Part shown: piece by piece, positions 8,740-13,303 of the stretch
How positions within the stretch are numbered: the stretch's first letter is position 1
How the letters are laid out: each line of letters begins with the position of its first letter
From: Methanolacinia petrolearia DSM 11571
GTDB lineage: Archaea > Halobacteriota > Methanomicrobia > Methanomicrobiales > Methanomicrobiaceae
Assembly (NCBI RefSeq): GCF_000147875.1
Contig: NC_014507.1
Coordinates: 1,798,001-1,862,000 of the forward strand
Direction: 5' to 3'
Length of the DNA stretch: 64,000 nucleotides
Notes under the pieces: generated by a model
Databases searched by the model: none
Seen by the model: only the letters and a program-made list of their open reading frames with translations
Told to the model about the DNA's origin: nothing
Translations under genes and position numbers: made by a program

Positions 8740-9432
8740 TTAACTTCCTGACATTGCAGGGTCGATTATAATATCCTCATCACCTTCTATGACATAAGAG
8801 TCAATTCCACCAGGATTAAGCAATCCATATTGCAATCGAACGTCAATGAGAGCCCATTCTACTGCGCCATTGAGAGTATATTGTTCATCCAAGTAGCTCC
8901 AAAACTTATCTGACCACCATGCTGCCTGACCTTGTGTGATATAATTACTGAAACCAACGGAACTATCAACCCCTTTGGACTCTGATTCATCCAATAGGTT
9001 TCCGTTCGTTGCATCGCTGTTTGCACTATTGCATGAAAGGTATACCGCGAGGGCGATATCATGAAGTGAACTGTAGGAATAGTCCGAAATCTTAAGTAGA
9101 GAAGGATTATCTGCGGTTATCGCCTCCATAGGGTCCCCACTACTTTCCTTGAAAAGTATCCTGCCGGGAGCTCCATGGCCAAAAAAGAAAAATACCTGAT
9201 CTGAAGCCATCCTGTTATAAGCATCATCTGCATCCTCATTCAAATAATATGAAGAAGAATATCCCATGCTGGATAGTTCACTTCGTGCGTTCTGAGCTAT
9301 TGATCTCGTATCCATACCATCATAGTAGTTTGTCCCATACGAACTTGCCTGGTAGGCGTTTACGCAGGGTACGAATGTAATTGCTATCAGTAATAGTGCT
9401 GACAGGAAAATACAAAATCTTCGTTTTTTCAT
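8740..9432 (-). CDS. Exported caspase/CHAT-like (clan CD) cysteine peptidase candidate
   Basis: 230 aa with a signal peptide (MKKRRFCIFLSALLLIAITF, cleavage likely after VNA at residue 26). The mature domain shows the two clan-CD blocks: a hydrophobic strand then His-Gly (VFFFFGHGAPGRI, H86) and a second strand then Cys (IALAVYLSCNSANS, C134), with the expected spacing of about 48 residues. Such His/Cys dyads occur in caspase-like, CHAT and gingipain-type enzymes. The small size suggests a minimal catalytic domain. It is the first gene of a minus-strand operon with the PepSY-like and membrane proteins. The promoter lies about 190 bp upstream, next to a 20-bp box shared with two other promoters in this island. 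The ribosome-binding site is AGAGGT. Proteolytic activity is inferred, not shown. Confidence 0.72.
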   Translation of the reverse strand: MKKRRFCIFLSALLLIAITFVPCVNAYQASSYGTNYYDGMDTRSIAQNARSELSSMGYSSSYYLNEDADDAYNRMASDQVFFFFGHGAPGRILFKESSGDPMEAITADNPSLLKISDYSYSSLHDIALAVYLSCNSANSDATNGNLLDESESKGVDSSVGFSNYITQGQAAWWSDKFWSYLDEQYTLNGAVEWALIDVRLQYGLLNPGGIDSYVIEGDEDIIIDPAMSGS

Positions 9433-9722
9433 GTTTTCATTACCTCTGTTTTATTAATTAACGGAAGCACAATCCAAATCCACTTGATATGAAAAGGGAT
9501 TTGATTAATGCTTCACTCAAAAAGGGCTTTTTAAGCTACAAGCCTGTAAAAACCCCCTACAATATTTTTTTGGGACACCTCAGGATGTCCACAACGGAAA
9601 ATTTACCATACCTAAATAAACTATTTATGAGCCAAAATTCGTCACGTATGAAAAGAGGTACAGATGATAACACCTATAAATCACGTTGCCCTTCTGTAAA
9701 TTATTAGTAAGGCCCTCTATAT
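9433..9722. other. Non-coding leader/promoter region of the peptidase operon
   Basis: 290 bases without a convincing gene. On the minus strand it holds the shared box (9627-9646), a TATA-like GTTTATTTAG (9612-9621) and a leader of about 150 bases. The leader contains a short hairpin at 9571-9589 (GGACA/TGTCC arms on the minus strand) and the ribosome-binding site AGAGGT. A 72-codon plus-strand reading at 9489-9707 is compositionally unconvincing. Confidence 0.5.
9627..9646 (-). promoter_or_regulatory. Shared 20-bp operator box, site 1 (peptidase operon)
   Basis: Plus-strand sequence ATGAGCCAAAATTCGTCACG. Read on the minus strand it precedes AAATAGTTTATTTAG, placing a TATA-like element (9612-9621) six bases after the box. 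It matches sites 2 and 3 in at least 16 of 20 positions, in the same orientation relative to the downstream gene. The core is a dyad of the type TGACRAA-T-TTTGTCA, imperfect at this site. Confidence 0.65.
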
Positions 9723-10238
9723 TTACCGTTTATCTCCCTGCCGCAAACACACAAAGGCAACGACAGAAGCTGCTATTGCAGCAATCAAACATGAAAAACT
9801 AAAACCCGGTGATTTCTGCGTTTCAACCAGTTTATCCTCTGCCCGGGAAGAAGATCCTGAAGATTCAAGGTATTCCTGAGGTATTTCCCAAGTCTCATTT
9901 ACATCAAGAATCCAGACAGCAACTATCTGCGCCGGATCACCACGTTCAACATACTTTCTTTCCAGAAAGACCAGTTGCTTCCCGCAGGAATCAGCCGGGG
10001 AAAGATGAACGGATCTGAAGTCATCATTGACCTGCTCACTGTACCATGACCCAACACCGCATTCTAGGATATATTCCATGATGGTAACATTGTTCTTTAC
10101 AGTAGGGTACATATTTGTCAATATCTCGACTGGAGCCCCAGTACCGGGAAGGAGTTGCGTGGATTCTGTTGTGATTTCAACTCCGGAAACTATACCACAT
10201 ATGAAGATAATTGTGAAAATAAACGCGATATTTTTCAT
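9723..10238 (-). CDS. Exported protein with C-terminal PGF-CTERM-like sorting signal
   Basis: 171 aa. It begins with a signal peptide (MKNIAFIFTIIFICGIVSG) and ends in a sorting-type tail: SPGFSFSCLIAAIAASVVAF followed by basic residues. The Pro-Gly-Phe, hydrophobic helix and basic end fit the PGF-CTERM signals processed by archaeosortase, preceded by a Ser-rich linker (SSGSSSRAED). Two cysteine pairs (CGVGSW, ADSCGKQ) could be disulphides. The central domain is not recognised. It lies 7 bp downstream of the transglutaminase-like gene and is probably co-transcribed from site 2. It is likely an S-layer-attached or lipid-anchored surface protein, perhaps a substrate or partner of the transglutaminase-like protein; the partnership is inferred. 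Confidence 0.68.
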   Translation of the reverse strand: MKNIAFIFTIIFICGIVSGVEITTESTQLLPGTGAPVEILTNMYPTVKNNVTIMEYILECGVGSWYSEQVNDDFRSVHLSPADSCGKQLVFLERKYVERGDPAQIVAVWILDVNETWEIPQEYLESSGSSSRAEDKLVETQKSPGFSFSCLIAAIAASVVAFVCLRQGDKR

Positions 10239-10245
10239 AAAAAAT

Positions 10246-11538
10246 TTAGTTATATTCTGGCAATTCTCCTAAAGGAATAGCAACCAGATCTTCATATCTC
10301 AACAGACCATCTCCAGCAGGGTCTTCAGTAAAACGGCTGTCATCAGCATCAGTATATTTTGTAAGATACATATGAGTATTATTCCCATGATTATATATCT
10401 GTGGGTTGTTGAAAGAATTCCATGTTGGATCAGAATGGATCCAGGAATTACCATCCCAGTTTTCAAGGATAGCATGCCCAATACAAGACCCAGTTTCATT
10501 AAGCCATGTTATGCCAAGGAACCGAGAAGGGATTCCGAGCGAGCGGCTAAAAGTTACATCCATCGTGGCATGTTCATCACAGACACCTTCATATTCATGA
10601 TTAATAATGTAGAGATCTGATGCAGCATAGAGCGAATATAATTCGTTAGAAACATACTCCATTTTATTAAATACGTAATCATTCAGTTTTTGAGCAGTGT
10701 CATATGGCGAGCTTGTATTGTCGCCTGCTGCTGCTGCCTCAAGGATGATAGCATATCCATCATTGTATGGGAAATGATACAAGTCGCTGGTTTCAAGGTT
10801 ATCTCCACTATCAGGATCTGGCAAATGCGATGCATCATTGTTATATTTTTCAATCGCATCAAGAGCAAGCTGCCCGGACCATGTCACTGTATTGCTGGGA
10901 TCTACCGTGATAAATAATCCCATCGGTTTAATCCCTACGGAGCTATAATTCCCAATAACCTGAAATGGGATATTGACTGAACAATTCATACCAGGGGAAA
11001 GATCAGTGAATGTCGCCGTTGAACTTAAACCATCTTCAATTGATACGAAATAAACCGTGCCACTTGCGTTTGTTGATCCAAAATTATGAATAATTACGTT
11101 CTGAGATACGATGGTGTCCTGCGTCCAATACCAATTAAAATAACCGTATTCTGGGGCCACTGTCGGGACAAGGGCTTTCGCCTCGGAGTTTGTTTTCAAA
11201 GATGGCTTAACAAAGTTGATCTTTACTGCTTTCATTGAAGATTTTTGAGCATCAACATAATTATTATTGGTAGGGAACTGGATATCCGAGTCGATAACTT
11301 CAACACCAGGATATTTTTCTGCTGTTTCCTTATCCATCTTCTCGATCGGAACAGGCGTTACCACCGGATTATACTCTGACATGTCCTTTTTTCCAGCCCA
11401 TTCATCAAACTGACCAACCCATCCAGGGGGTGTTGGATTTGAATCGTTTACTGCGCTAACAACTGGAATGAACATCATTCCTGCAAATACTAATATCACT
11501 AGCAAGCTCAATACCCGCAGACTCGTTTTGATTTTCAT
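10246..11538 (-). CDS. Exported transglutaminase-like domain protein
   Basis: 430 aa. A signal peptide occupies about residues 1-30 (SLRVLSLLVILVFAGMMFI). Residues about 145-225 form a CARDB/Ig-like beta domain (NVIIHNFGSTNASGTVYF ... LFITVDPSNTV). The C-terminal half is a transglutaminase-like (papain-fold) domain with an intact triad: C320 in EGVCDEHA, H355 in CIGHAILE and D370 in IHSDPTW. Such proteins act as peptidases or crosslinking enzymes outside the cell. The gene heads a two-gene unit with the PGF-CTERM-like protein. It has a 150-base leader and the shared 20-bp box with TATA element upstream (11716-11750). The ribosome-binding site GGTGA precedes ATG. Confidence 0.82.
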   Translation of the reverse strand: MKIKTSLRVLSLLVILVFAGMMFIPVVSAVNDSNPTPPGWVGQFDEWAGKKDMSEYNPVVTPVPIEKMDKETAEKYPGVEVIDSDIQFPTNNNYVDAQKSSMKAVKINFVKPSLKTNSEAKALVPTVAPEYGYFNWYWTQDTIVSQNVIIHNFGSTNASGTVYFVSIEDGLSSTATFTDLSPGMNCSVNIPFQVIGNYSSVGIKPMGLFITVDPSNTVTWSGQLALDAIEKYNNDASHLPDPDSGDNLETSDLYHFPYNDGYAIILEAAAAGDNTSSPYDTAQKLNDYVFNKMEYVSNELYSLYAASDLYIINHEYEGVCDEHATMDVTFSRSLGIPSRFLGITWLNETGSCIGHAILENWDGNSWIHSDPTWNSFNNPQIYNHGNNTHMYLTKYTDADDSRFTEDPAGDGLLRYEDLVAIPLGELPEYN

Positions 11539-11730
11539 TTTTTCACCAGATATAATAAAACCAGAAAAAAGGAGATAATTGAAACATGTGTGATCTTTGA
11601 TACAATGTTGCTCCTGTGATATTCCGGTTAAATCCTTAGATACAACAATGCCGATATTTTTTATCAGCTTTTACAGGACAATAACAGACTGTCCAGATCA
11701 GTCCTATAACAATGACTTTATAAACGGTTT

Positions 11731-11750
11731 ATGTGTCAAAATTTGTCATG
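11731..11750 (-). promoter_or_regulatory. Shared 20-bp operator box, site 2 (transglutaminase-like operon)
   Basis: Plus-strand sequence ATGTGTCAAAATTTGTCATG. On the minus strand it is followed after six bases by the TATA-like GTTTATAAAG (11716-11725), the same geometry as site 1. It differs from site 3 (read on the minus strand) at only two of 20 positions. The gene start is 193 bases further on, implying a long leader. Confidence 0.7.
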
Positions 11751-11974
11751 TTATAGTAAACCAAATTATAACAAGAATAGCTATAAAATTCTGAAAAATC
11801 GTATTATTTGCCTTTAATTTTTAATAAAATTACATTTTTTAGAGATTCTAGAATCAGGGGAATGACTGTGATACCATAATCCCCCGATCCGCGGGTATCA
11901 CTGGAATAACCGCTTTATTGAATATTATGTACCGGTATTAATTTTCTCTCTGCCAAAATTAATCCGGTTATAAA

Positions 11975-11994
11975 CATGACGAATTTTGTCACAT
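11975..11994 (+). promoter_or_regulatory. Shared 20-bp operator box, site 3 (PPC-like gene)
   Basis: Plus-strand sequence CATGACGAATTTTGTCACAT, containing the best dyad of the three (TGACGAA, T, TTTGTCA). AAAAAGTAATTG follows, a weaker TATA-like element, and the start codon of the PPC-like gene is 43 bases after the box, so the transcript would be nearly leaderless. The orientation relative to the gene is the same as at sites 1 and 2. Confidence 0.68.
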
Positions 11995-12036
11995 AAAAAG
12001 TAATTGACAGTACCCTGAACGCTTACCTGTGATACC

Positions 12037-12486
12037 ATGAAACTAAACTGGTTAGCGATTTTGTTCATTATTGTTGCGGCACTTGCCGTACCATCTGTAT
12101 CGGCAAAAATAATCGAAGAAAAAGACGGATATATCGTAACTACTTGTGATAAAAGTCTCAATCTGCCAGAAGCTTTTAAATCCACTTCAAGATCGATCTC
12201 CCAAGGCCAGACCGACTGGTATTCAACCTCGGTTCCCGCAGGGAAAACCTCTTTATATGCAGATTTAAACTGGGGCGACACTTCAGATTCCATCTCGCTT
12301 ACGATCCTGGCACCAGACAGTACACTTGGACCGTATTATGATTCTGCAGACGGACATATTGATGGCCGGATAAATCTGAGAATTTCAAAATCCAGCGGTA
12401 TTCCGTCAGGCACATGGTGGTCAAAGATTTATGGAGAAATGGTGAACGGTGCTCAAAGTTACACATACTCCGCATCTGCAATTTAG
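12037..12486 (+). CDS. Small exported PPC-like beta-sandwich protein
   Basis: 149 aa with a signal peptide (MKLNWLAILFIIVAALAVPS, cleavage near VSA at residue 23). The mature part has the strand pattern of bacterial pre-peptidase C-terminal (PPC) domains: SISQGQTDWYSTSVPAGKT, LYADLNWGDTSDSISLTILAPD and a C-terminal SGTWWSKIYGE. PPC domains are usually appended to secreted peptidases; a stand-alone one next to a peptidase island is uncommon. GTGAT lies three bases before ATG. The box at 11975-11994 is 43 bases upstream. The regulator gene starts 52 bases downstream, after a T-run, and may be read through from this promoter. Function is unknown. Confidence 0.7.
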   Translation: MKLNWLAILFIIVAALAVPSVSAKIIEEKDGYIVTTCDKSLNLPEAFKSTSRSISQGQTDWYSTSVPAGKTSLYADLNWGDTSDSISLTILAPDSTLGPYYDSADGHIDGRINLRISKSSGIPSGTWWSKIYGEMVNGAQSYTYSASAI

Positions 12487-12538: not shown

Positions 12539-13303
12539 GTGGTACGTTCACATCGTTTACTGATACTTCTTCTTTATGTATCTTTGATTCTTTCATCTAA
12601 TGCAAGTGCAACGTTAAACGAATATATCGTTGAACCGGTCACTCCTGATATGGACACCGGCACGCCTCTGGATACAGTTCTTATCAATTTCTGGGACCTC
12701 CCCCCAGGAGCCATGTTAATTGCCCTCGCTCTTTCTGTTTCGTCCTTTCTCGGGTTTCCAGTTGAATTATTTTTTTATATTAAATTGTATATGATCCTTG
12801 GATACCGTAAAATATCCCGGAATACTGTTCTGACCAACGAAACACGAAATCAGATTTATTCATGCATCAAGGAAAACCCTGGTATCATCTTTAACGATCT
12901 TGTACGCAGGAGTGGTATAAACAGAGGAAATGTCTCTTACCATATCAATATCTTGAAATATACAGGGAAAGTTAACGTTCTGGATTCTTCAGGCAACCCC
13001 AGATATTTTGAAAATTCCGGAGTATATTCCAAATCTGAAAAACTTGTTTTAAAATATCTCAGGAATGACAAAGATTGCCGAATTTTAAAATTGCTTTTAG
13101 AAAAACCCGAATTGACCCGAAACGATATCGGGGATTACATAGGTCTAACCCCCTCAACAGTCAGCTGGAGAATGAAAAGACTCGGTGATGAAGAAATAAT
13201 TCGGATTCAAAAAAACGGAAAAAACGTCAGATATGAGATTAATCCTGAAATTCAACAATATCTAGGAAAATATCTTGTGAATGAGCAGGACAAAATACCG
13301 TAA
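12539..13303 (+). CDS. Membrane-tethered double winged-helix transcription regulator
   Basis: 254 aa from GTG at 12539, chosen because a strong GGGGGGAGG lies just upstream. An N-terminal hydrophobic segment (residues 6-25, signal peptide or anchor), an exported loop of about 30 residues and a second membrane helix (about 58-82, MLIALALSVSSFLGFPVELF) place the rest in the cytoplasm. Two winged helices follow: residues about 96-155 (RNQIYSCIKENPGIIFNDLVRRSGINRGNVSYHIN) and about 165-235 (LKLLLEKPELTRNDIGDYIGLTPSTVSWRMKRLGDEEII), similar to MarR/ArsR-type regulators of Methanomicrobia. It is the only regulator in the exported-protein island and the natural candidate to bind the shared 20-bp dyad, perhaps in response to an envelope signal. 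The binding is inferred. Confidence 0.78.
   Translation: MVRSHRLLILLLYVSLILSSNASATLNEYIVEPVTPDMDTGTPLDTVLINFWDLPPGAMLIALALSVSSFLGFPVELFFYIKLYMILGYRKISRNTVLTNETRNQIYSCIKENPGIIFNDLVRRSGINRGNVSYHINILKYTGKVNVLDSSGNPRYFENSGVYSKSEKLVLKYLRNDKDCRILKLLLEKPELTRNDIGDYIGLTPSTVSWRMKRLGDEEIIRIQKNGKNVRYEINPEIQQYLGKYLVNEQDKIP

Follow-up and report, generated by a model that had tools for sequence, protein, structure and literature searches.

A candidate operator of a predicted membrane-tethered winged-helix regulator in an exported-protein island of Methanolacinia petrolearia, with paralogous regulator-box pairs

The window analysed here, a stretch of 64,000 nucleotides from the genome of Methanolacinia petrolearia DSM 11571, contains an island of genes for predicted exported proteins with a 20-bp box repeated at three of its promoters (Table 1). 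The three boxes span at most 2.4 kb and each faces its own gene, and all three downstream genes have a signal-peptide-like start. Box 3 is the promoter box of an operon that encodes a partner protein and a regulator. The initial annotation described three box sequences agreeing at 15 or more of 20 positions, pointing the same way relative to the gene behind them; all three are present, with pairwise identities of 16, 17 and 18 of 20 (box 1 shows several departures from the consensus), and the coordinates confirm their orientation. The equal spacing to a TATA-like element, clear at two sites and weak at the third, also holds: the gap is 6 bp at all three, with AAAnnGTTTAT abutting boxes 1 and 2 and the weak AAAAAGTAATT in its place at box 3, so that the element after AAAnnG is of TTTATA type at boxes 1 and 2 and TAATTG at box 3. 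The three listed sites thus stand, and a fourth, degenerate box that lies back to back with box 3 was missing from that list.

Table 1. Features of the exported-protein island in the window and boxes of three sister islands
Feature	Position	Strand	Sequence and remarks
Box consensus, gene-ward reading			CATGACRAATTTTGTCACAT; 20 bp
Box 1	9627..9646	-	CGTGACGAATTTTGGCTCAT, then AAATAGTTTATT; TATA-like element ~9615-9620
Box 2	11731..11750	-	CATGACAAATTTTGACACAT, then AAACCGTTTATAA; TATA ~11719-11724
Box 3	11975..11994	+	CATGACGAATTTTGTCACAT, then AAAAAGTAATTG; weak TATA ~12001-12006
Degenerate box 4	11948..11967	-	CCGGATTAATTTTGGCAGAG; back to back with box 3; faces weak TATA GAGAAAATTAATA
Hairpin 1 of predicted divergent small RNA	11891..11913	-	GCGGTTATTCCAGTGATACCCGC
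Hairpin 2 of predicted divergent small RNA	11851..11890	-	Loop ATGGTATCACAG at 11866-11877
Hairpin near predicted start of box-1 transcript	9573..9590	-	GGACATCCTGAGGTGTCC; by eye; leader ~155 nt
Hairpin near predicted start of box-2 transcript	11676..11694	-	GGACAGTCTGTTATTGTCC; leader ~155 nt
P0004, predicted exported protein	8740..9432	-	Behind box 1
P0002, predicted exported transglutaminase-like protein	10246..11538	-	Behind box 2; Transglut_core 3.9e-13
P0003, predicted small exported beta-sandwich partner protein	12037..12486	+	Behind box 3
P0001, predicted membrane-tethered double winged-helix regulator	12539..13303	+	PF24266 and HTH_24; model
Sister box	388 kb		GATGATTCGGTCAC
Sister box	265 kb		TTTGTCGTAGAAAA
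Sister box	L122		CAGTTGGACGATTTGGACAT

The regulator gene follows that of the partner. Residues 100-169 of P0001 match PF24266 (HTH_HVO_0163_N) with 47.6 bits against a gathering cut-off of 31, and the protein also matches the Pfam family HTH_24. Its AlphaFold model (mean pLDDT 84.7) has two helices of hydrophobic sequence, at 2-20 and 56-86, and tandem winged helices at the C-terminal end, at 101-158 and 165-234. A transmembrane transcription regulator (TTR) is defined as one protein with a predicted DNA-binding domain and at least one transmembrane region; with winged helices recognized by Pfam and hydrophobic helices in the same chain, P0001 is by prediction such a protein, a membrane-tethered double winged-helix regulator. 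Two other assignments were rejected: the match to MsvR (NF053755) reaches 31.3 bits against a cut-off of 220 and aligns the winged helix alone, and the PADLOC matches to Csa3 and CARF rest on the generic winged helix alone. For the PF24266/HVO_0163 family, in which P0001 scores above the curated cut-off, we found no described operator or function in the open-access literature, and a search of the same literature (subscription papers lay outside its scope) for transmembrane HTH regulators of Methanoregula and for HVO_0163 returned no description of such a system.

The partner P0003 is modelled as a beta-sandwich (pLDDT 85.8), with subtilase domains, GOLD domains and collagenase PPC domains as the nearest solved folds. 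In a genome of the same genus (G002), the short outside segment of the regulator and the N-terminus of the partner have the motif IIEEKxGYIV in common (L024:11598-12416 and L024:12456-12905), which hints at a possible interaction between the two proteins. For P0004, motifs seen by eye (FFFGHG...SCNSA) recall caspase-like peptidases and suggest a caspase-like fold; searches of Pfam and NCBIfam with this protein gave no family match.

Within the window alone, the agreement among the boxes is statistically modest, since 27% of random 20-mers find two extra matches of at least 15 of 20 there, and 1% find another match of at least 17 of 20. Across the 2.84-Mb genome the statistic is strong. Pattern searches, on which all genome-wide counts rest, found exactly three sites with at most three mismatches in 20, all of them the window boxes, and a reversed control pattern had no match at this threshold in the whole genome. 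Two more own-genome matches at 2.50 Mb (TGACAAATTTTCTCATAT) lie within coding repeats and were rejected as promoters.

A search of 40 genomes showed that the box recurs in homologous islands. G002 carries four boxes in at most 3.4 kb of a single contig, and a member of another genus (G014) has a box cluster too; their P0001 homologues are 61-64% and 55-56% identical, respectively, depending on the alignment. A protein search of genome contigs with P0001 identified two Methanoregula metagenome-assembled genomes, one of which (L130) combines a 68% identical homologue with three boxes arranged alike (the G168 match at L149 in the order search corresponds to it). Exact matches to the degenerate core TGACGARTTTTGWCAYA occur, among 232 genomes of the order, only in M. 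petrolearia itself (G000), G002 and G014, all of which encode a P0001 homologue; one-mismatch matches elsewhere are scattered, at about the frequency of the reversed control. Taken with the box at the regulator's own promoter and the co-divergence described below, this co-occurrence supports the suggestion that the island's winged-helix protein reads the box, and P0001 is very probably that reader. It is also what makes it most improbable that the box is read by a DNA-binding protein encoded elsewhere: the regulator gene stands under the box and would be a target in any case, but across the 232 genomes an exact box match goes together with a P0001 homologue, and among paralogues the type of box follows the type of regulator.

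Nineteen sites from four genomes align without gaps through box and TATA, with constant spacing, and yield the matrix CGTGACGAATTTTGWCACAT; a G014 match in L026 (6083) with no clear TATA beside it was left out of the count. Columns 3-8, 10-14, 16, 17, 19 and 21 are near-invariant, and columns 2, 9, 15, 18 and 20 vary. Because of this variation, the 7-bp dyad that had been proposed as the mark of a dimeric regulator survives only in part. Over the 19 sites its symmetry is 65%, with A, T or G in column 15 and G in column 7, where the dyad requires A, and the sister boxes described below lack it, so that we reject it as a dimer signature. A binding site of roughly 20 bp that is asymmetric and used in one fixed orientation would fit tandem winged helices on one chain better than a simple dyad.

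Could the boxes be leftovers of a local duplication of promoter segments, with no regulatory role? Exported genes of such islands have often been copied along with their promoters (as in G014 and L102), which speaks for this view. Among the three window sites, however, the box and its distance to the TATA are conserved and the flanks differ, and the constraint holds over four genomes; we give this explanation hardly any credence.

In their own genome, P0003 and P0001 have nine matches apiece, themselves included, many of them as adjacent pairs. Upstream of many such pairs lies a different box (Table 1). It is often doubled, with the copies back to back at a distance of about 8-20 bp and a separate TATA in front of each. 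In the 42 pairs that we examined, seven of them in the genome of M. petrolearia, the 20-bp box differs from type to type but keeps its promoter position, and in many islands the pair's own box is repeated directly before the TATA of exported-protein promoters within 15 kb. The proposed link between box and exported-protein genes is supported. Genome-wide, seven of eight copies of the 388-kb type and five of six of the 2508-kb type are local. The 875-kb type occurs also at 1.47, 1.49 and 1.62 Mb (G000:C1:1467853, 1491210-1492888 and 1624478), the last copy less than 1 kb from another member of the regulator family; with three such distant places, some regulons therefore exceed one island.

Box and regulator have changed together. 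Over the 42 loci, box mismatches correlate with how far the DNA-binding parts have diverged (Mantel r 0.577, with none of 5000 permutations as high; p 0.0002), in a comparison for which boxes were aligned by eye and in which much of the correlation comes from close homologues: r is 0.20 for pairs more than 55% divergent. The mean box mismatch rises from 1.8 at less than 30% divergence to 11 of 20 above 65%. When single specificity residues were considered with overall identity controlled, the best partial r was 0.29, with nothing centred on the recognition helices. A cleaner contrast than the Mantel test is offered by L131 beside G014. The L131 regulator is 54% identical to P0001 (G014: 55%), yet its box has changed to GTGTAAAGTTTTGACCGACA, and its recognition helices read KPGTLRYH and SGPLVTWY, as against NRGNVSYH and TPSTVSWR. 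Judged from these sequences, the pairs form one family of paralogues that co-diverged with their own boxes.

We therefore consider it likely that the box is the operator of P0001 and defines a small private regulon of exported proteins within this co-diverged paralogue family, and that the effect is most probably activation. We infer binding, activation, sensing and a role for the divergent RNA along the following lines. P0001, held at the membrane, would bind the box just upstream of BRE/TATA and help TFB/TBP onto the promoter, its own included; at that promoter, with its weak TATA, the two back-to-back boxes would provide both autoregulation and a divergent transcript, and the exported partner P0003 would probably be part of the sensor. 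Help to TBP/TFB, as the initial annotation had proposed, is plausible by analogy. Activation is favoured because a site upstream of BRE is the position of described archaeal activators, namely EarA (PMC5512572), TFB-RF1, which recruits TFB from such a site (PMC5937170), and ArnR of Sulfolobus acidocaldarius (PMC6396743), together with CsmR, for which activation is itself by inference (PMC13286277); the fixed spacing of the 19 sites through TATA agrees with this class. Binding to the same box with the opposite effect, P0001 hindering TFB at BRE until an outside signal frees the promoter, is an unlikely alternative. One end of the box adjoins BRE, and many winged-helix relatives, by sequence and fold, are repressors; against this, the TATA and the start site lie outside the box, a TATA as weak as that of the regulator operon is in keeping with an activator, and a CsmR-like position has been interpreted as activating (PMC13286277).

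The closest known system would be ArnR/ArnR1, membrane-bound one-component activators with an HTH that control surface or exported structures; binding requires both of two boxes placed immediately before BRE/TATA (PMC6396743). ArnR and ArnR1 are described with an N-terminal HTH, a HAMP domain and a C-terminal membrane part, whereas the winged helices of P0001 are C-terminal and doubled; their box is TCGAC-N5-GTCGA (PMC6396743), unlike the asymmetric 20-mer of the window, and the exported partner gene that precedes the regulator here is a further difference. P0001 may work like ArnR, but its reversed domain order and its different box set it apart from that group. EarA, from the methanogen Methanococcus maripaludis, is a soluble protein. 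As is proposed for P0001, it is a winged-helix activator acting just upstream of BRE; it differs in its short repeated 6-bp site, TACATA, and in its target, the archaellum operon (PMC5512572; site cited in PMC6396743). CsmR of Haloferax volcanii likewise has a semi-palindromic motif upstream of BRE/TATA; the motif is TATCA-N4-TGATA, the targets are archaellum and shape genes, and the consulted portion of the account notes no membrane anchor (PMC13286277). A survey reports that TTRs, which resemble P0001 in carrying a DNA-binding domain on a membrane protein, are enriched in Methanomicrobia; it covers prevalence, domains and topology, and the portion at hand notes no operators (PMC10269533).

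The divergent RNA, the membrane anchor, the partner protein and the sister islands with other boxes all go beyond the initial annotation. The counterpart of box 4 is intact, with a good TATA, in G002, G014 and L130, where this second regulator-promoter box is followed by two hairpins and no gene is apparent between it and the next box. In the window, the loop of hairpin 2 is complementary over 12 nucleotides to the start of P0003 (CTGTGATACCAT, 12027-12038); a direct repeat of that length was found at 8 of 2000 random places. The complementarity is 11 nucleotides in G002 and 14 in G014 (read from the sequences), and L130 has the same loop. Compared with shuffled sequences, the folding z-score is -3.6 in the window, -5.9 in G014 and a weaker -1.6 in G002, and in two base pairs both partners have changed across the four sequences. 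These features are compatible with a divergent RNA that might restrain the regulator operon by an antisense action. Rfam, searched with positions 9400-12060 of the window, returned only one sub-threshold viral snoRNA match, and no family for the divergent RNA or the leaders.

The larger result beyond the boxes of this island is the set of paralogous regulator-box pairs. More tentatively, and with considerable doubt, we suggest that the many regulator/partner pairs in methanogens of this order, in which a private 20-bp box that co-diverged with the regulator accompanies a bidirectional back-to-back promoter and, within the clade, a small RNA pairing with the operon start, may constitute a self-limiting, self-duplicating and self-respecifying cassette. 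To our knowledge, membrane-bound regulators of archaea with a known operator are few, and ArnR is the one that we found (PMC6396743). The present set would add dozens of regulator-box pairs with sites, one fold and one promoter geometry, and could reveal the rules by which tandem winged helices recognize their DNA and the means by which duplicated regulators avoid cross-talk, while methanogen exported-protein islands of unknown function gain a testable control circuit. Similar double-box promoters precede such pairs in other families of the phylum, and a genetically tractable member may therefore exist.

Apart from the boxes, the leaders after boxes 1 and 2 open with a GGACA...TGTCC hairpin, and similar hairpins lie behind effector-gene boxes of G002 (L024), G014 (L027), L130 and L131. 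On the G002 contig, a spacer-repeat array and apparent type I CRISPR-Cas genes, recognized by eye, adjoin the island (L024:1-9918). The partner gene of G014 is apparently interrupted between promoter and body by an insertion with a 311-aa open reading frame (L027:11350-12665); at a distance of 4.4 kb there is another copy of the promoter and the beginning of the partner gene, which is truncated (L027:6920-7337). Rfam gave no credible match to the L074 copy of another leader, of about 167 nucleotides, that is conserved after box promoters in sister islands (TCATGCATGTAGCATC...CCCGGGGGCATAA...GTCTCCGGGGGCA...GGAGAC; L074:6785-6951, minus strand). Further copies of this leader occur in L072, L075, L076, L079, L082, L084, L087, L094, L119, L122, L126 and L128; among 37 matches, 27 were aligned, and 4 of the 18 predicted pairs have changed on both sides.
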